From: a virus
Virus record (IMG/VR): IMGVR_UViG_3300025093_000068
Coordinates: 1-32,748 of that record
Reading direction: 5' to 3' (one strand)
Length of the DNA: 32,748 nucleotides
This document shows, in pieces, positions 11,180 through 22,183 of this stretch (position 1 is the stretch's first letter; every line of letters starts with the position of its first letter). The notes below the pieces were generated by a model that saw nothing but the letters and a program-made list of their open reading frames with translations, ran no database searches and had not been told where the DNA came from. A program made the position numbers and the translations under genes.

Positions 11180-11440
11180 ATGAGTTGGGGTGGTAAAAGA
11201 GAAGGTTCTGGTAGAAAGTCTAAAGCTGATGAATTACAGTTATTAGATAAGCTATCACCTATGGAAGATTTATTTATCCAAGTATTACACGATGGTTTAA
11301 AGAAGGGTGATTATAAGTTTGCACAACTATTTGCTAATTACTATTATGGTAAACCTAGAGAAACACAAGACATAACCCTAAACCAAGAAACACCTTTATT
11401 TGAAGTAGTCGTAAAAGATAATGAACCAAGTACAGACTAA
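11180..11440 (+). CDS. putative terminase small subunit
   Basis: An 86-residue protein beginning with a basic G-G-K-R-E-G-S-G-R-K-S-K (4-15), the usual start of Bacteroidota phage small terminases and related DNA-binding proteins. A helical region and Y-Y-Y-G-K-P-R-E-T follow. It would recognise phage DNA and recruit the large subunit. It lies directly before, and overlaps by 20 nt, the large terminase gene. It is short for a complete small terminase, so an oligomer-only form without a separate domain is possible. Confidence 0.7.
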   Translation: MSWGGKREGSGRKSKADELQLLDKLSPMEDLFIQVLHDGLKKGDYKFAQLFANYYYGKPRETQDITLNQETPLFEVVVKDNEPSTD

Positions 11441-12587
11441 TGTTGTATTTAATCACGCTTATAACTTTTATAGATCTGACAATAAGATACTAATAGAAAG
11501 AGGGGGAAGCCGAAGCGGAAAAACTTTTAATATACTTATCTGGATTATATTTGACTACTGCTTTCAGAACAAGAATAATATAATAACTATATGTCGTAAA
11601 ACATTCCCTAGTTTACGTGGAACTGTTATGCGTGACTTTTTAGATATACTAAAAGAGTATGATTTATATAGCGAAAAGAATCATAATAAGAGTAATAGCG
11701 AATACTATTTAAACAGCAATACTATAGAGTTTATATCACTAGATCAGCCTGCTAAAATACGTGGTAGAAAGAGAAACTTATTATTTGTTAATGAGTGTAA
11801 TGAAATAGACTGGGATAGCTGGCAACAATTAATATTTAGAACAGAAGGTCAGATCATAATAGATTATAACCCTAGTGAAGCAAATCACTGGATATATGAT
11901 AAAGTAGAAACTAGAGATGATGCTGTGTTTTTTAAGACTACATATAAAGACAATCCATTTATAGATAAAACACTTGTACACGAATTAGAAAGACTAAAAG
12001 AAACAGATGAAGAATATTGGCAAGTATTTGGACTGGGTGAAAGAGCGTTATCCAGAACACAAATATTTAGCTTTACTACAATAAATAAAATACCAGAGGA
12101 TGCTAAGTTCCTATCTATAGGTATGGACTTTGGTTATACTAATGATCCTACAGCTGCAGTAGAAGTATATCAGAAAGATCACAGCTTATATATTAATGAA
12201 CTACTTTATAGAACTATGATGACTACCGCAGACATACATAGATTCTTTCTAGAGCATAATAAAGACAATAAGCTATGTTTTGGTGATTCAGCAGAAGTTC
12301 GTTTAATAGACGAGCTTAAAAGAATGGGAAACAATATAAGACCAAGTGTTAAAGGACAGAATAGTATAATGGCTGGTATAGATCTGTTAAAGCGATACAA
12401 ACTACATATAACAGAAACATCTGTAAATGCTATAAGAGAGTTTAGAGATTATAGATGGAAGAAAGATAAAGCTAATAGATTAACTAATATACCCAATGAA
12501 GGTGCAGACCATTTACCTGATGCTACTAGGTATGCTACCTATAGTCTAATGAGCAAACCTAACTATGGTAAATATGCTATTCGTTAG
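11421..12587 (+). CDS. Terminase large subunit (PBSX/Terminase_3-like)
   Basis: A 388-residue DNA-packaging motor. The ATPase has Walker A G-G-S-R-S-G-K-T (28-35) and Walker B L-L-F-V-N-E (120-125, Glu125 catalytic). The RNase H-like nuclease follows, with Asp236 (G-M-D-F-G-Y-T), Asp289 (F-G-D-S-A-E) and Asp367 (L-P-D-A-T-R-Y). The length and layout fit PBSX-type large terminases, which cut concatemers and drive DNA into proheads through the portal. All catalytic acids are present. The ATG at 11421 overlaps the small subunit gene. The end overlaps the minus-strand gene by 11 nt. Confidence 0.92.
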   Translation: MNQVQTNVVFNHAYNFYRSDNKILIERGGSRSGKTFNILIWIIFDYCFQNKNNIITICRKTFPSLRGTVMRDFLDILKEYDLYSEKNHNKSNSEYYLNSNTIEFISLDQPAKIRGRKRNLLFVNECNEIDWDSWQQLIFRTEGQIIIDYNPSEANHWIYDKVETRDDAVFFKTTYKDNPFIDKTLVHELERLKETDEEYWQVFGLGERALSRTQIFSFTTINKIPEDAKFLSIGMDFGYTNDPTAAVEVYQKDHSLYINELLYRTMMTTADIHRFFLEHNKDNKLCFGDSAEVRLIDELKRMGNNIRPSVKGQNSIMAGIDLLKRYKLHITETSVNAIREFRDYRWKKDKANRLTNIPNEGADHLPDATRYATYSLMSKPNYGKYAIR

Positions 12588-13209: not shown

Positions 13210-13872
13210 ATGAAACTTTCTATTAATGTACCAACAGAATTAAATGAACTGACACTAGGTCAATATCAAAAGTTTATTAAGGTACAAAAAGATAATGGTG
13301 ATGGTACGTTTGTAGCACAGAAGATGATAGAGATATTTTGTGGTATAGATCTTAAAGATACATTCAAAATAAAGATTACAGATATGAATGAGATAATTAA
13401 GATACTAAATGATTTACTAGAGATAAAGCCAGAACTAATAAACAGATTCACACTAAACAACCAGGAATATGGTTTTATACCAATACTAGAAGATATATCA
13501 TTAGGTGAGTATATAGATATAGAAAACTTTATGCAGAACTGGGATGAGATGCACAAAGCTATGTGTGTATTATATAGACCAATAAAACAAAAGTATAAAG
13601 ACAAGTATGATATTGTAGAATATGATGCTAAAGAAACCGATGTAATGAAAGATATGCCTTTAGATGTAGTTTTTAGTGCGGTGGTTTTTTTTTACAATTT
13701 AGGAATCGAGTTGTCGAGCAATATGATGGATTATTTAACGGAGGATCAGATGACCAGCCTTATGGAAGGTCAGCACAGTTTTCCAAAAGATGGGGGTGGT
13801 ATTCAGCAATTTACGAACTCGCTCAAGGACGTGTTACAGAATTCGAAAATATCACTAAGGAAAGATTATTAA
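13210..13872 (+). CDS. tail assembly chaperone, G-type product
   Basis: A 220-residue protein resembling, from memory, the tail assembly chaperones of flavobacterial siphoviruses: L-T-L-G-Q-Y-Q-K-F (15-23), Y-G-F-I-P-I-L-E-D-I-S-L-G-E-Y (87-101), A-M-C-V-L-Y-R-P-I (117-125) and V-V-F-F-Y-N-L-G (158-165). Such chaperones coat the tape measure during tail assembly. The gene carries a run of nine T (13685-13693) containing an in-frame T TTT TTT slippery heptamer. A second open frame (-1) continues beyond it to 13961, giving a G/GT pair as in lambda. The start is the ATG after the TATTATATTATT element. Confidence 0.75.
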   Translation: MKLSINVPTELNELTLGQYQKFIKVQKDNGDGTFVAQKMIEIFCGIDLKDTFKIKITDMNEIIKILNDLLEIKPELINRFTLNNQEYGFIPILEDISLGEYIDIENFMQNWDEMHKAMCVLYRPIKQKYKDKYDIVEYDAKETDVMKDMPLDVVFSAVVFFYNLGIELSSNMMDYLTEDQMTSLMEGQHSFPKDGGGIQQFTNSLKDVLQNSKISLRKDY

Positions 13873-13961
13873 AATCGCTAAATGTATTATTATATATTAA
13901 AGAGAAAAACGAAGTAGAACAAGCAGAATTAAAAAGAAATGCCAGCAAACGTAGCCATTAG
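13686..13961 (+). CDS. tail assembly chaperone, T extension reached by -1 frameshift
   Basis: The -1 frame relative to the chaperone gene is open from 13677 to a tag at 13959-13961 and has no good start of its own. Its product includes S-K-R-W-G-W-Y-S-A-I-Y-E-L-A-Q-G, then V-T-E-F-E-N-I-T-K and L-Y-I-K-E-K-N-E-V-E, a pattern I recall as the T part of chaperone fusions in related phages. A slip on T TTT TTT (13686-13692) would fuse 161 residues of the G part to 89 residues, 250 in all. A slip site further downstream cannot be excluded. The end overlaps the following gene by 23 nt. Confidence 0.7.
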   Translation, partial: FFLQFRNRVVEQYDGLFNGGSDDQPYGRSAQFSKRWGWYSAIYELAQGRVTEFENITKERLLKSLNVLLYIKEKNEVEQAELKRNASKRSH

Positions 13962-14412
13962 ATCATATTACTTACTTAGCGAAGCGCTAGAAAGTTCACT
14001 ACTAAACAACAATATAACTAAAACAGTAACAATAGGTGATATATCTGATGTAGACTTAGGTAAGCAAACTATATTTCCATTAGCACATTTTATAGTTAAC
14101 AATGTAGTATCTACAGAACAAACACTTGTATATAATATTACTATACTAGTTATGGATATTAAAGATACTAGTAAAGAAGAAGAAACAGATAAGTTTAGAA
14201 AAAACACAGACGAACAAGACATATTAAACACACAGTTAGGCGTATTAAATAAATTAATACAAACATTAAGATTTGGAGAGCTGCACACAACAGGATATAA
14301 GTTAACTAACGATCCAACTTGTGAACCATTCGTAGATAGGTTTGAAAATAACTTAGCAGGATGGAACGCAGACTTAGAAATAGAATTACCTAATGATCAG
14401 TATATATGTTAG
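13939..14412 (+). CDS. tail terminator / tail completion protein candidate
   Basis: A 157-residue protein with R-S-Y-Y-L-L-S-E-A-L near the start, I-G-D-I-S-D-V-D-L-G-K-Q-T-I-F-P-L (32-48), N-T-Q-L-G-V-L-N-K-L (96-105) and C-E-P-F-V-D-R-F-E-N-N-L-A-G-W at about 128-142. This set recurs in flavobacterial phage tail operons (from memory). Size and context fit a protein that caps the tail or joins it to the head. It starts within the end of the chaperone T extension and overlaps the next gene by 7 nt. Confidence 0.65.
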   Translation: MPANVAIRSYYLLSEALESSLLNNNITKTVTIGDISDVDLGKQTIFPLAHFIVNNVVSTEQTLVYNITILVMDIKDTSKEEETDKFRKNTDEQDILNTQLGVLNKLIQTLRFGELHTTGYKLTNDPTCEPFVDRFENNLAGWNADLEIELPNDQYIC

Positions 14413-14981: not shown

Positions 14982-15988
14982 TGGCAGCAATATTATTAAG
15001 AAGTCCGTATTACGAAACACATAGCCAAGCATATGTTAGTCCTAACGTAGCTAAAAGTGCTACATTAACATTATCTGTAAATGGTACGCAAATATCTTCT
15101 ATGAGTAAAGATACTGTGCTATCTGGAACTAGTGGTCAAGAAACAGGAACAGTAGCATTTGAGATAGCAGATCTATGTAGAGATTATTTAGATGTAACAT
15201 TTAATAATTCTTATACTAGTCAAAGCATAGCAATAACAGGTACACTTACATTTAAAAGTGAAACAATAGATGATATTAATACAGGTACATCTGCAGTTAC
15301 AGTAGGTACGCCTATAAGTATTAATCATATAGGTTTAGATGGTTATTATGAATTTATGGAAGGTTTAGGCACAGGACAAAATAGCGCTAAAACAGTAGCA
15401 ACAAATGATGTCTTACAAGACAATACTCAACTATATTACCCAGACAATACAGCAGGTGTAATTCCTTATTGGGATGGTACTGCAATAGTATATGATACAT
15501 TTAGTGCTTCAGCAATAGCACATACTACAATATCTACTGCATTTACAATAAATAGGGTATGTAATAAACACACAGCGTATAAAGTAACATTTGTAAATAA
15601 ATATGGAGCATTACAAGACTTCTATTTTAATGGTAAAACAACAGAAAACATTAATGTAAGTAAAACTACATTTAAAAGAAACATAGCAAACAGCAGCTTT
15701 GAGTATAATAAACAAAAACATTCTATAAAACAGTTTAATACTTTAGCTAACGAAACACTTATATTAAATACACCTCCTATGAGCTATGATAATGTAAACG
15801 AAGCTATAAAACAATTATTAGTAAGTGAGCAAGTATGGATAAGAAAAGAAGAAGGTGGTTCAGAACAAACTATACCAATTAATATAACCGATACACAACA
15901 AACATTTAAAACAGGCGTAAACGATAAAGTAGTACAATATACAATTACTGCAGAGTATGCCTTTGATATGATAAGTAATATTAGGTAA
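14981..15988 (+). CDS. tail-associated structural protein
   Basis: A 335-residue protein, beta-rich throughout and low in Lys at its start (L-L-R-S-P-Y-Y-E-T-H). An N-terminal Ig-like region (V-A-F-E-I-A-D-L-C-R-D-Y, about 58-69) is followed by further beta strands. Homologous proteins precede the hub gene in flavobacterial phages, as I recall. A baseplate or tail-tip subunit is likely. It has taATG overlaps with both neighbours, so translation is coupled through the tail operon. Confidence 0.6.
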   Translation: MAAILLRSPYYETHSQAYVSPNVAKSATLTLSVNGTQISSMSKDTVLSGTSGQETGTVAFEIADLCRDYLDVTFNNSYTSQSIAITGTLTFKSETIDDINTGTSAVTVGTPISINHIGLDGYYEFMEGLGTGQNSAKTVATNDVLQDNTQLYYPDNTAGVIPYWDGTAIVYDTFSASAIAHTTISTAFTINRVCNKHTAYKVTFVNKYGALQDFYFNGKTTENINVSKTTFKRNIANSSFEYNKQKHSIKQFNTLANETLILNTPPMSYDNVNEAIKQLLVSEQVWIRKEEGGSEQTIPINITDTQQTFKTGVNDKVVQYTITAEYAFDMISNIR

Positions 15989-18900
15989 TGAATGATATTC
16001 AATTATATGTTAAAGAACCTACTGATGTAAATTATACTAGGTTAGATTTATTTAAAGACGAAACAATATCTTTAACACAAACTATACAAGATGTAAAAGA
16101 TCCTGGAAAGATATTTACAAACTTTAGTAAAACATTTAGTTTACCTGCTAGTAAAACAAATAACAAATTCTTTAAACATTACGAAAACTTTATTCAATCA
16201 TCAGAATATTCTTTTGATGCACGTAAAAAGAAAGAAGCTAAAATAGAATTAAATAGTTTACCATTTCAAAAAGGTAAAATAAGATTAGAAGGTGTAGATT
16301 TAAAAAATGGTAGACCAGATACATATAGAATAACTTTCTTCGGTGATTTAGATTTAAAAGAAGTATTAGGTGATTTAAAATTACAGGATTTAGATTTTTT
16401 AGATAATTTTGATTTAACTTATACATCTAGCGATGTTAAAACAGCACTAACATCAATATCTGGTTCAGGTGACGTTACAGTAGGCAGCGAAACATTTACT
16501 ACACCTACATTAGTATCTTTAATAGGTAACTCGCAAAGAGCTTTTTTTTTAAATGTAACATCTCCTGTAACTTCTCCATCGTATTATGATGCAACTAAAG
16601 AAGAAGTAAATATATCAGGTGGTAATTTAAGTACAACTAATAGTGCGCAATACTCTGGCTATTATTGGAAAGATTTAGTTTATAGTATAAGGCTGTATGT
16701 AATAATTAAAGCAATAGAAGATCAGTTTGATAAAATAACTTTTAGTACTGATTTCTTTAATAAAACTAACGGAGGTTTTTATAATCTGTATATGCTTTGT
16801 CAAAGAAATGCAGGTAAAATACTAGAAGGTTTAGGATCCTCATACACACCTAATAAACAAACTGGTAAAACATATTTAAATGCAACAAATTTACATCCTA
16901 ATAATTTAATACTTGGTGAAAGAATATTTGTAATATATAATTTAGCATCATACGAAAACTTTCAATTTGCGCTAACAGTTAATTATACTACATCATCAGG
17001 TAACATATATGTTGATCTAAGGAATACGTCTACTAACCAAACAGTAACAACTTTTACTTATGCTGTAGGTCAATCAGGCGGTACTAGAAGTTTTAGTTTA
17101 GGTAACGGAACATATAAATTAATATTTAGAGCTGATAACAATGAAACTGTAGATACTTTTTCTTTTGATCTATATGGTAATTTTGACAATTTTGATACAA
17201 CAAGTATAGCTACTGGAGATGTAGATGCAAACTTTGATATACCAACACAAGGTTTTTCAATATCACAAAACATACCAGATATTAAAATTATAGACTTTTT
17301 ATCAGGATTATTTAAAATGTTTAATCTAACAGCTTATAAAAAAGATGGTAAAATATATGTTAAAACTTTAGATAGTTATTATACAGACGGTACAGTAAGA
17401 AATATTACAGAATATGTAGATAGTACAACTAAAACAGTAGACAAAGCATTACCATATAGAGAAATAGAATTTAAATATGAAGATACTAATAACATACTTG
17501 CTAAAAACCATTTAGAACAATTTCAAAAAGAATGGGGTGCTGCTACTTATAATGATGATGGAACATTAGATAGCAATAATGAAAAATATGAAATAGTACT
17601 ACCTTTTCAACATATGAAGTTTGAAAAACTGACCACAGGTTTACAAGTAGGGCATTTACTAGATGATAAACAAGCAGCATATTTAGGTAAACCAGTAATA
17701 TATTACCCTATACATAGTTCTACAACAGGGCAAACAGGGCCTTCAATAAATTTACTTTCAGATATAAATGGTTATGATGGTGGAACAATTAACGATTATG
17801 AACCTAACGTAGATCAATATTGGATACCGAGTAACACACCTACAGTTTTAAGTACAGGGTCAGGTTACCCAGAATCTATACATTTTAACAAAGAATTAAA
17901 CGAATGGAACGGAAGCGATGCGTTTAGTGACACTTTATTTGAAAAATATTATAAATCATATATAACTAACGTATTTAGGTTTAACGAAAGGTTAACAAAG
18001 ATAAAAGCTAGATTACCTTTAAGTTTCTTACAAGAATATAGTTTAGCAGACGAATTACAGATAGGTGATTTAACTTATAGAATAAATAGTATAACAACTA
18101 ACTTACAGACAGGTGAATCAACTTTAGAATTATTAAATGGACGTGAAGCAGTAGTTTCATCAGGGGTTGGTTCAGTAAGTATATTAATATCTTCATCTAA
18201 TAGCGCAACACCTAGCACAGCTTGTGGATATACTTTAAATACAACAGTATATTATACAGGTTTATTAGGAAACACAACACAGCTATTTACAGATTCAGCA
18301 TTAACAACTAATTATACAGGATCAGGAAACTATCACGCTTTTCCAGGTAGTAATTATGGTACAATAGATACTAATGGTTATGTGTCTAATTATCAACCTT
18401 GCCCTACACAAGCACCTACAATGACAACTAGTAGTGAGACAAATGTTACTTATCAATCATTTACAATGAATGGTAGTTTAGATGTAACTAATGGAACTGT
18501 AACAGAAAAAGGTTTTTATTGGGGTACAGACGCAACTTACAGCAATAATACAAAAGTAGCAGAAGGAACAACAAGTAGCGGATCTTATCAAAAAACAATA
18601 TCTAGTGGTGTGTCAGCAAATACACTTTATTATGTTACAGCATATGGTATTAATCAACACGGAGAAGGTATAGGAACTACTATAAGTTTTACAACTCCAT
18701 CAGCGCCAATTCCACCAACAGTTACAGCAGAACCTGTAGATAATTTAGGTTATGATAGTTTTACTGCAGAATTAGAAATAACTAGTGATGGTGGAGCAAC
18801 AATAAATGGAGCAGGTTTTTATATGGGAACTAATAGCGCAGCAGCAACAAATAACCCACATTATGACATAACACCTGCACCAACTAGCACAGGAACTAAG

Positions 18901-20262
18901 CAATATGATTTTGGAAGTGCAGAGGGTATATTAGCTAATACTACTTATTATTATTGGGGAACAGCTACAAATACTTATAGCACTACAAAAGGTGTGTCAT
19001 CTACATATACAACCTTTACAACAGATGCTGCACCTTCAGCGCCTAGTGTAGTAACACAAACTGAAACATCTGTAACTTCATCAAGTTTTACAGGTAACAT
19101 AAATATAACAGCGGATAATGGATCAAGTATAACAAGTGCAGGTATATGGATGGGTACAAACAATACTGCTTATAATGCATCAGGTAATACTTTTTATTCA
19201 ATATCTGCTACAAGTACAGGTGTAAAATCATATAACTTTACTGGGTTAAATAGCAATACAACTTATTATTATTGGGGATCTGCTACTAATAGTGCAGGTA
19301 CAACAATATCTAGCGCATACGAAACAGTACAAACACCTCAACAAGTATATAGTTATAATGCACATTACAATACAAGTGCGTTTACTGCGTGTGTACAATC
19401 GACAACAACTACTTATTATTCATATACTTCAACTTGGCAAGCAGGTATGGTATTGTACACAACAAACACAAGTGGTACTCTATCTGGTTTAGCGCCAGAT
19501 GGTAATTATAGATTAAACCCAAATAAATATCACGTAATATCAGGTGGTAATGGAACGCTAGGTGCAGAACAAAATTGTAACTTATCTATAAAAAGATTAA
19601 GAATAACTGCAGATTATGTTTCTGGAACAAACTTTTATGATTTAACTACAGTATTTGGTGAATCATTTAGTACTACAGATTACTTATATCAAGCAGGTGG
19701 TGTGTTTGGTAGTGATAGTTTAGTTTATACTGATGAAAATTTAACGACTACACCTACATATGGTTTAGGTACATATGATCAAGACCATTCATCTGATCCG
19801 TTAAGAATATATTATCAAAGTTTTCCAGACCAAAAAATATTTGCTGCTAAACTTCAGTATTATAGTACATCAACGCAACAATGGGCAGATCAAAACCCTA
19901 ATTACACTAGGTTTTACCAAATGGATAGTAGTGGATATTTAAAAAGATTATATTGGAATCAACCAAATGGTGATTTATACTATGACAGTAATAACCCAAG
20001 TACAGCTGGTTTAACAGGTATAAAAATAACTACTGGTTATACTACTGCATTAGGTGCTTGTGCAGGAACGGCAGGAACTATTGTTTATTTTGCAGGTACA
20101 ACACTTGGTAATAATACAGTATTATATACCGATTCAGTTTCGGCAGGTCAAGCTAAAACTACAGAGAAATTTAATGGTAGTAATCAATGGTATAAGTTTG
20201 AAAATAACTATAGAGCGCAAATAAGCAGCAGCGGTGTAGTATCTAATTATGCAAGTTGTTAA
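15988..20262 (+). CDS. large tail hub / tip protein with FN3 repeats
   Basis: A 1,424-residue protein. Residues 1 to about 730 resemble the tail hub/fibre-base protein common in flavobacterial phages (K-D-P-G-K-I-F-T-N-F-S-K-T-F-S near 37-51, G-R-P-D-T-Y-R-I-T-F-F-G-D-L near 109-122, and A-D-E-L-Q-I-G near 689). Three FN3-like units follow at about 809-906, 910-1010 and 1018-1114, each with Y-Y-W-G or Y-V-T-A-Y-G strand endings. Cys-bounded modules of 60-67 residues lie at 746-805, 1135-1197 and 1358-1424, with a Cys-less relative near 1233-1255. The C-terminal part probably touches the host surface. There is no signal peptide. Confidence 0.75.
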   Translation: MNDIQLYVKEPTDVNYTRLDLFKDETISLTQTIQDVKDPGKIFTNFSKTFSLPASKTNNKFFKHYENFIQSSEYSFDARKKKEAKIELNSLPFQKGKIRLEGVDLKNGRPDTYRITFFGDLDLKEVLGDLKLQDLDFLDNFDLTYTSSDVKTALTSISGSGDVTVGSETFTTPTLVSLIGNSQRAFFLNVTSPVTSPSYYDATKEEVNISGGNLSTTNSAQYSGYYWKDLVYSIRLYVIIKAIEDQFDKITFSTDFFNKTNGGFYNLYMLCQRNAGKILEGLGSSYTPNKQTGKTYLNATNLHPNNLILGERIFVIYNLASYENFQFALTVNYTTSSGNIYVDLRNTSTNQTVTTFTYAVGQSGGTRSFSLGNGTYKLIFRADNNETVDTFSFDLYGNFDNFDTTSIATGDVDANFDIPTQGFSISQNIPDIKIIDFLSGLFKMFNLTAYKKDGKIYVKTLDSYYTDGTVRNITEYVDSTTKTVDKALPYREIEFKYEDTNNILAKNHLEQFQKEWGAATYNDDGTLDSNNEKYEIVLPFQHMKFEKLTTGLQVGHLLDDKQAAYLGKPVIYYPIHSSTTGQTGPSINLLSDINGYDGGTINDYEPNVDQYWIPSNTPTVLSTGSGYPESIHFNKELNEWNGSDAFSDTLFEKYYKSYITNVFRFNERLTKIKARLPLSFLQEYSLADELQIGDLTYRINSITTNLQTGESTLELLNGREAVVSSGVGSVSILISSSNSATPSTACGYTLNTTVYYTGLLGNTTQLFTDSALTTNYTGSGNYHAFPGSNYGTIDTNGYVSNYQPCPTQAPTMTTSSETNVTYQSFTMNGSLDVTNGTVTEKGFYWGTDATYSNNTKVAEGTTSSGSYQKTISSGVSANTLYYVTAYGINQHGEGIGTTISFTTPSAPIPPTVTAEPVDNLGYDSFTAELEITSDGGATINGAGFYMGTNSAAATNNPHYDITPAPTSTGTKQYDFGSAEGILANTTYYYWGTATNTYSTTKGVSSTYTTFTTDAAPSAPSVVTQTETSVTSSSFTGNINITADNGSSITSAGIWMGTNNTAYNASGNTFYSISATSTGVKSYNFTGLNSNTTYYYWGSATNSAGTTISSAYETVQTPQQVYSYNAHYNTSAFTACVQSTTTTYYSYTSTWQAGMVLYTTNTSGTLSGLAPDGNYRLNPNKYHVISGGNGTLGAEQNCNLSIKRLRITADYVSGTNFYDLTTVFGESFSTTDYLYQAGGVFGSDSLVYTDENLTTTPTYGLGTYDQDHSSDPLRIYYQSFPDQKIFAAKLQYYSTSTQQWADQNPNYTRFYQMDSSGYLKRLYWNQPNGDLYYDSNNPSTAGLTGIKITTGYTTALGACAGTAGTIVYFAGTTLGNNTVLYTDSVSAGQAKTTEKFNGSNQWYKFENNYRAQISSSGVVSNYASC

Positions 20263-20291: not shown

Positions 20292-20444
20292 ATGATATCT
20301 AGCATAATCGAATTATTAAAATACTCTAAAAGCAAAAGCGAGAATGTACAAATAGCTAAAGGTAAATATAAACTACCTAGTAGCGTAAAAGAAGCGTATA
20401 ACCAATTTAAACAAGAGCTTAAATGGCAGTCAAAAAAACAATAG
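20292..20444 (+). CDS. hypothetical small protein upstream of the tape measure
   Basis: A 50-residue ORF beginning M-I-S-S-I-I-E-L-L-K-Y-S-K and rich in Lys and Ser, ending Q-E-L-K-W-Q-S-K-K-Q. It starts 30 nt after the hub gene behind a TATTATAT-type leader and overlaps the tape measure start by 22 nt. No family is recognised. The overlap supports translation coupled to the tape measure gene. Confidence 0.5.
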   Translation: MISSIIELLKYSKSKSENVQIAKGKYKLPSSVKEAYNQFKQELKWQSKKQ

Positions 20445-22183
20445 AGTTAGAAGTAGAGGTTGGTAATCTTAAAAAAGATTTAGAAGCAATACAAAAAGAG
20501 TTTGCTGAAATAAAAGGTTCTATAAAAGATGTAGAAAAACAAAGTAAAAAACAAACTAAAGCTACTGAAAAAGGTTTTAAAAGATTACAAGCTACAGCTG
20601 GCAAAGTTAGAAAAGGTATAAGCGGTATAGGCGCTGCATTTAAAGCTATACCAATAGCTGCAGCATTACAAGCATTTCAATTTTTAGCTAATGCTTTTAA
20701 TTCAAATAGAGAAGCAGCTGATGCATTTGCAACAGTAACAGGAACAGTACAAAAAGTAATTAGAGATTTTATAGATCTTATTGTAGATAATTTTGATAAT
20801 GTAATAAACTTTTTTAAAGAACCAATAAAAAGTATTAAAGATTTTGGTCAAGCTATTATAGATTCTGTAAAACAACCATTAGCAGAAGCATTAGAAGGGT
20901 TAAAGTTTTTTGGTAAAGCGGCATTAAAAATATTAACATTAGATTTTGCAGGAGCTGCAGTAGAAGCAGCACAAGGTGTAGAAAAATTTAAAGGTGTTAC
21001 AGATACAGTTAAAGAAGGTGTATCTGAATTTACAGGTAAAATAAAAGAAGGTGTAGAAACATTTAAAAACTACGTAACTGAAACAGGAAAATCAGTAAAA
21101 AATTCTGTTGATTTGGCAAACGCAGCTAGAATAGCAGCAGCAGAGCAAGAAAAACAAAGATTAGTTACATTACAGGCGGCAGAAGAACAAAGACAAATAA
21201 GAGATGATGTAAGCCAAAGTATAGAAGATAGAATAGCAGCTAATGAAAAACTAGGTCAAATATTACAAGAAGGTGCCGAAGAAGAACTTAGATTAGCTAA
21301 ATTACAAGTAGCTGCAGCAGAAGCTAAAGCTGCTTTGAATATAGATAGCATAGAAGCACAAGAAGAATTAATTAGAGCGCAAAACTTATTACTAGAAGTA
21401 ACTGAAAGAATAGGTGGTATAGAATCTGAACAATTAACTAATAGAAATGCTTTAATACAAGAATCTGTAGACCTACAAACTACACTTTTACAACAAACAT
21501 TTGATTTAGAAGAAGCTGAAAGGCAATCGTTAATAAACTTAACAGATAATGAGTTTGAAAAACTAAGAATACAACAAGAAGCAGCTGAAGCTAGAAAACA
21601 ATTAGCATTAGATGTATTTGCAGAACAAGAAAGGTTATTAGATAAAGAATCAGCAGCGTTTAAAGAAGCAGAAGCAGAAAAAATACGATTAGTTGCAGAA
21701 GCTAATGCAGAAGAAGAACTATTAGACAAAAATTTAGCTGATATGAAATTTAATCTAGCTAAAGATGGTTTAAAAGCAATAGCAGGTGCGTTGAATGAAA
21801 ACAGTGCAGCAGCTAAAGCAGCATTAACTGCAGAAGCAATAATGAGTACATATAAAGCAGCTACTACGGCATTAGATAGTAAACCATTTTTCCCTTTAGG
21901 TTTAATTGGATTTGCTACAGCACTTACAACAGGTTTTAGCGCAGTTAAAAATATAGTAAGCACAAAAGTACCTGGAGGTGGAGCAGGAGCAGTAGGTGTA
22001 TCAGCAGCAGCGGCATCACCAGTAGCACAAGCACCAGCATTTAATGTAGTAGGGCAATCACCATTAAATCAAATAGCTGAAACACTAAACAACCAACCAC
22101 CAACAAAAGCATATGTAGTTTCTGGTGAAGTTACAACAGCACAACAATTAGATAGAAATATAATTAGTGAAAGTGGAATATAA
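20423..22183 (+). CDS. tape measure-like protein
   Basis: A 586-residue protein with a long helical N-terminus (E-L-E-V-E-V-G-N-L-K-K-D-L), an Ala-rich central part with hydrophobic patches (A-A-A-L-Q-A-F-Q-F-L-A-N near 74-85), a charged coiled coil at about 240-445 (E-E-Q-R-Q-I-R and A-E-A-R-K-Q-L), and a Gly/Ala/Pro-rich end. This is the usual tape measure layout, setting tail length and aiding DNA ejection. If wholly helical at 0.15 nm per residue the tail would be about 88 nm; that is an estimate, not a measurement. The ATG at 20423 follows from the N-terminal repeat of Glu/Val. Confidence 0.7.
   Translation: MAVKKTIELEVEVGNLKKDLEAIQKEFAEIKGSIKDVEKQSKKQTKATEKGFKRLQATAGKVRKGISGIGAAFKAIPIAAALQAFQFLANAFNSNREAADAFATVTGTVQKVIRDFIDLIVDNFDNVINFFKEPIKSIKDFGQAIIDSVKQPLAEALEGLKFFGKAALKILTLDFAGAAVEAAQGVEKFKGVTDTVKEGVSEFTGKIKEGVETFKNYVTETGKSVKNSVDLANAARIAAAEQEKQRLVTLQAAEEQRQIRDDVSQSIEDRIAANEKLGQILQEGAEEELRLAKLQVAAAEAKAALNIDSIEAQEELIRAQNLLLEVTERIGGIESEQLTNRNALIQESVDLQTTLLQQTFDLEEAERQSLINLTDNEFEKLRIQQEAAEARKQLALDVFAEQERLLDKESAAFKEAEAEKIRLVAEANAEEELLDKNLADMKFNLAKDGLKAIAGALNENSAAAKAALTAEAIMSTYKAATTALDSKPFFPLGLIGFATALTTGFSAVKNIVSTKVPGGGAGAVGVSAAAASPVAQAPAFNVVGQSPLNQIAETLNNQPPTKAYVVSGEVTTAQQLDRNIISESGI

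Follow-up and report, generated by a model that had tools for sequence, protein, structure and literature searches.

How could a phage reading frame that lacks a start codon be translated, and which proteins would result? The locus that raises this question lies in a 32,748-base virus record (hereafter, the window), whose source is a marine flavobacterial phage and which had no near nucleotide match in the phage collection. On the plus strand, ORF G (13210–13872) encodes 220 amino acids, consisting of a shared N-terminal core (residues 1–161) followed by a 59-amino acid zero-frame C-terminal tail. Read directly from the sequence, a T9 run occupies positions 13685–13693 of G. The codons there are GTT TTT TTT TAC, with the slippery heptamer T_TTT_TTT in frame at 13686–13692, its P-site TTT at 13687–13689, and its A-site TTT at 13690–13692. 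The −1 frame stays open over 13677–13961, contains no ATG, GTG, or TTG, and overlaps the open zero frame for 196 nt. From 13692 to 13961 it encodes a domain of 89 amino acids plus a stop (LQFRNRVVEQYDGLF...FSKRWGWYSAIYELAQG...), which we refer to as T. The zero-frame tail and T are thus both encoded by a dual-coded stretch of 180 nt (13693–13872).

A sequence-only reading of this DNA had proposed a programmed −1 frameshift at the T9 run, and our coordinates agree with its placement of the in-frame heptamer, with a start-less −1 frame that continues past 13872 to 13961, and with a predicted fusion of 250 residues (161 + 89). It was also correct in suggesting that the slip may come early in the overlap; 180 nt separate the heptamer from the zero-frame stop. 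Under this proposal, ribosomes translating G would arrive at Val-Phe-Phe (GTT TTT TTT), where some would step back one base on T_TTT_TTT, with both tRNA-Phe molecules able to re-pair perfectly. Ribosomes that do not slip would produce the 220-amino acid protein with its 59-amino acid zero-frame tail, and those that slip would produce a 250-amino acid protein ending in the 89-amino acid helical T domain.

Within the window, the motif alone is not significant. In this AT-rich sequence, T9 runs number five against 5.1 expected, and in-frame T_TTT_TTT occurs at five places among the ORFs; with counts so close to chance, it is the relatives that decide. One other T9 run with an in-frame T_TTT_TTT (16542–16550) lies inside a 1,424-amino acid ORF (15988–20262). 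The paired open frames are significant, and less likely to be due to chance than the motif: redrawing synonymous codons gave a probability of 0.0004 that the −1 frame would be stop-free given the zero-frame protein, and codon resampling in the window gave 0.0015 for a stop-free zero frame given the −1 protein.

Using G and T themselves and their profiles as queries against IMG/VR, we obtained approximately 320 loci and 260 unique G+T pairs. T lies at −1 relative to G in 259 of the 260 unique viral loci, and an in-frame T_TTT_TTT occupies the corresponding codons in the same proportion (259/260); the lone exception to the −1 relation, L310, differs from a near relative, L315, by one T in the run. 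The run is nine T's long in 234 loci and ten in 25, and it is never shorter than nine among the T-type relatives (259/259). In 112 representative loci less than 80% identical to one another, the second and third heptamer codons are invariably TTT (112/112), whereas these genes use TTC for 26% of their Phe codons (P ∼ 1e-15 for the last heptamer codon alone). The base preceding both TTT codons is always T in these representatives, although T ends only 36% of Val, Leu, and Ile codons. Judged by these counts, the in-frame heptamer is conserved beyond codon usage. No other heptamer is shared across the overlaps, 176 of 258 of which contain none. The sequence-only reading had looked to related phages for loss of the downstream frame or of the slippery site; essentially every relative keeps both.

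The same arrangement occurs at six loci in GTDB genomes, five of them in records titled Bacteroidota or its genera. These include a prophage of the cultured bacterium Galbibacter pacificus CAA-3 (L343), which carries both the site and the −1 T domain. One relative (L340) is a contig in a bin labelled Epsilonproteobacteria; the other named hosts are all Bacteroidota, and a binning error is likely.

These genomes bear on whether a sequencing or assembly indel within one continuous gene could have created the offset. T homopolymers are error-prone, and L310 and its near relative L315 differ by just one T, but the arrangement recurs in hundreds of contigs, in a cultured bacterium, and in an isolate phage, and the zero-frame tail is under selection (discussed below). 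With the site present both in the Galbibacter pacificus CAA-3 assembly and in the isolate P12024L, it did not arise from faulty metagenome assembly. We consider an assembly indel refuted by the cultured genomes and by a clade bearing a different heptamer, described below, leaving this explanation a negligible probability.

T might instead be a separate gene, translated through its own initiation or through reinitiation and without any frameshift. Phage P12024L is annotated in this way, with gp40 followed by gp41, whose ATG overlaps the preceding stop. Yet the −1 frame of the window has no ATG, GTG, or TTG, and an ATG falls within 30 codons past the slip in only seven of 258 relatives. Moreover, the gp41 ATG lies a long way downstream of the slip site, where the FRxR...Y..LF part of T directly begins, and an internal start would not explain selection on the slip-site bases. 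With ATG, GTG, and TTG absent in the window and ATG nearly so in relatives, we rejected an independent T start, which we regard as highly improbable; gp40 and gp41 (JQ823123.1 23946–24640; L001:6001–6695) look like one frameshift gene. The −1 frame downstream of the slip is, as we read its conservation, coding and without a start of its own.

If ribosomes do shift frame at this site, they appear to do so without a recognised stimulator, as the mean folding z is near 0 past the slip in 80 relatives and no downstream RNA structure was found in them. Such structure is frequent in −1 frameshifting but not obligatory, and so is not defining; nor is lambda G/T known to depend on a stimulatory RNA structure.

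By itself, T9 is compatible with ribosomal and with transcriptional slippage, and a natural change of slip site helps to distinguish the two. Fifteen loci (L192 and L322–L335) carry A_AAT_TTT at the heptamer codons, with no homopolymer. The preceding codon in this clade varies among GTA, ATA, and GCA but without exception ends in A, and these loci have kept both T in the −1 frame and a long zero-frame tail. In a tree of 70 G+T sequences, these loci form one group nested inside the T9 family (support 100/99). Both U_UUU_UUU and A_AAU_UUU have the form H_HHU_UUY, a class that ranks with the most efficient −1 motifs in E. coli (PMC4066793).

According to the transcriptional account, RNA polymerase stutters on T9 and adds one U in some mRNAs, from which normal translation then makes the −1 product. 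Several features of the family fit this account. Every T-type member has nine or ten T's, in three different registers (GTT TTT TTT T.., TTT TTT TTT CTG, and GGT TTT TTT TTG), and the run shifts register while remaining at this length (L340:3469–3477, L350:1492–1500, and L306:2965–2974), where a bare heptamer needs only seven. The third base of the last TTT is likewise invariant, though a change to TTC would be silent in frame 0 and the resulting CTR would leave Leu in frame −1. A bare heptamer rule demands neither the run of at least nine T's nor the invariance of this codon, which TTC never replaces, and runs of at least eight are typical of genes that use transcriptional slippage (PMC3711429). 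Set against these points, conserved flanking hydrophobic and aromatic codons, together with the fixed heptamer, force nine T's in most members, and the nested A_AAT_TTT clade keeps the −1 arrangement with no homopolymer at all. A T run of nine is common to this family and to the genes of programmed transcriptional realignment (PMC3711429), but the A_AAT_TTT clade lacks it; the homopolymer of at least eight that a transcriptional-slippage gene would show throughout its family is absent from these 15 loci. RNA polymerase slippage would not readily explain this clade, whose lack of a homopolymer favors ribosomal −1 slippage. We consider a transcriptional origin improbable, although polymerase slippage may contribute as well in members with T9.

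The distance from slip to zero-frame stop is 180 nt in the window and approximately 140–290 nt in most relatives, compared with a mean of 26 nt in annotated actinophage (SEA-PHAGES) frameshift genes (PMC10885494). This bears out the view of the sequence-only reading that the overlap, which it put at nearly 200 nt, is longer than usual. We computed omega across 13 independent pairs of close relatives. In the overlap it is 0.32 [0.19–0.51] for frame 0 and 0.27 [0.15–0.49] for frame −1, against 1.76 [1.25–2.72] and 3.61 [2.26–6.76], respectively, in matched single-coding controls; for frame 0 in the T-only stretch, a weaker control only 78 nt long, it is 0.67 [0.35–1.98]. Own-frame values in the single-coding parts are 0.08 for G and 0.16 for T. 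Codon-position constraint passes along the gene from frame 0 to both frames and then to frame −1. Within the overlap, the first 60 nt past the slip conserve mostly frame 0, frame −1 dominates the middle 60 nt (omega 0.15 versus 0.62 for frame 0), and the last 54 nt conserve both. Both overlap frames are, on these estimates, under purifying selection.

Such selection has to be weighed against the possibility that only the −1 frame matters past the slip, the zero-frame tail being an accidental by-product whose frame stays open because of how T is composed. Dominance of frame −1 in the middle third of the overlap is consistent with this, as are the disordered or low-confidence prediction for the tail and the tails of merely 16–25 amino acids in the Inhavirus-like clade (P12024L/S and L162–L164), the only clade in which they are short. 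A by-product would not be expected, however, to show a frame 0 omega so far below that of its matched control, to remain open across the overlap in nearly all members (a state with the resampling probability of 0.0015 in the window), or to conserve a motif, GxGI..F..SLKE, common to the zero-frame tails. We therefore regard a dispensable tail as unlikely. Purifying selection on both frames suggests that the gene does not choose between stopping and extending but switches between two C-terminal ends, each of them conserved. The sequence-only reading had missed the conservation of the zero-frame ending, because of which the gene would not follow a simple scheme in which G stops and GT extends. 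In L143 (2522–3313), the zero-frame product (264 amino acids) is longer than the frameshift product (254 amino acids), a swap of the long and short roles. We lean modestly toward a general form of this proposal, in which the frameshift would choose between two independently functional C-terminal domains, overprinted over 180–290 nt, family-wide in Bacteroidota phages, with short and long roles reversed in some. In the open-access literature searched, we found neither this family described nor a long G/GT overlap with dual coding.

We infer slippage in vivo from the conserved site, the −1 relation, the conservation of both frames, and the heptamer swap. The programmed −1 frameshift at T9 is strongly supported by its recurrence in 259 of 260 loci and by the conservation of both frames, and on such comparative evidence we hold the frameshift itself to be nearly certain. 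That it would be a −1 ribosomal slip yielding a G/GT pair with two alternative ends is very probable, and is the best explanation overall.

What the two proteins do is suggested mainly by analogy. Searches of Pfam, PHROGs, and the PDB with G and T returned no named family; neither the two sequences nor their profiles had a Pfam or PDB sequence match, to a chaperone or otherwise, and the G profile matched nothing in the PDB at E up to 1. The profile comparison that the sequence-only reading had suggested, of the −1 product with tail chaperones, accordingly gave no chaperone match in Pfam or the PDB. G matches phrog_32199, of unknown function (3.9e-19), and T weakly matches phrog_38404 (16 of 71 members, best 0.0012). 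AlphaFold2 (AF2) models of G and T were built separately. The core of G is predicted with pLDDT mostly 80–90 and its zero-frame tail mostly below 50; T is modeled as four helices (pLDDT 74.6). Foldseek matched many unnamed phage proteins, some of which, such as A0A516L5A8 (260 amino acids), fit both the G and T models, and single-frame fusions may therefore exist; annotated tail assembly chaperones among its hits numbered two, both weak (E 0.61 and 1.5). Foldseek and VIA-align searches of the PDB yielded no match above Z 4.7, and the lack of a strong match in this fold search is not evidence of a new fold. In a second Galbibacter prophage, a 187-amino acid single frame directly after the terminase (L354:7364–7927, minus strand) has a T-like C-terminal domain (E 3.5e-6) and is a likely single-frame analogue.

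Gene order places the G/T pair in the tail module, though not beside the tape-measure gene as in lambda. The pair is directly 3′ of the large terminase gene (11421–12587; phrog_2, 2.3e-42) and is followed by a 157-amino acid gene (13939–14412; phrog_30964) whose first 23 nt are shared with the end of the T frame, an order also found in P12024L and the Galbibacter prophage. Four ORFs and approximately 6.5 kb separate the pair from a tape-measure-like ORF (20423–22183; phrog_3336 tape measure, 6.7e-6), a call backed by a Galbibacter homologue (phrog_1538, 2.3e-7), and the position of the pair relative to the tape measure is matched in the Galbibacter prophage. Since the pair does not immediately precede the tape-measure gene, we do not file it as a lambda-type member, only as working like one. 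Of the tail chaperone G/GT pair named by the sequence-only reading, the −1 pair thus held, whereas the chaperone assignment stays an analogy, given the lack of Pfam or PDB matches, the Foldseek values, and the post-terminase position. By that analogy, a tail-chaperone role is probable, and the G/GT pair would take part in tail assembly as lambda gpG/gpGT does.

The result of our analysis is a proposed mechanism for a gene family that is large, unannotated, and found in environmental phages of Bacteroidota. Having no start codon, the T domain is readily lost or wrongly split off by gene callers, P12024L being an example. Because one gene combines a naturally exchanged slip site with an extended region of dual coding, several questions can be tested there: which slip rules Bacteroidota ribosomes follow, how overprinted domains evolve, and whether a frameshift can work as a two-ended switch.

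Among the closest known systems is Nonlabens (Persicivirga) phage P12024L, whose gp40/gp41 is a true homologue (G core 31% identical). It shares the T9 run with T_TTT_TTT, the −1 T domain, and the gene order, and differs in a zero-frame tail of merely 25 amino acids and in its annotation as two separate hypothetical proteins. For a lambda-type chaperone pair, the expectation is that G binds the tape measure, T binds the major tail protein, and neither is found in the virion. Lambda makes its tail assembly chaperones gpG and gpGT by a frameshift (Levin 1993; Xu 2004; reviewed in PMC5009743) with features seen or proposed at this locus too: a −1 slip on a heptamer inside the upstream ORF, a downstream ORF with no start, and two proteins with a common N-terminus, made from the structural module of a tailed phage. 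The lambda pair has no detectable sequence relation to G and T, and it adjoins the tape-measure gene, whereas the pair here follows the terminase. Furthermore, the slip in lambda comes late in g, close to its 3′ end, and gpG stops soon after, while here the zero frame continues, conserved, for 180 nt. The −1 chaperones of actinophages (SEA-PHAGES, PMC10885494) are alike in that a backward slip joins two ORFs in the tail module, and differ in the far shorter mean distance from slip to stop noted above. The event proposed for this family, most likely ribosomal, is therefore of a known kind; what would be new is that it joins two conserved, dual-coded endings with a natural swap of the slip site.
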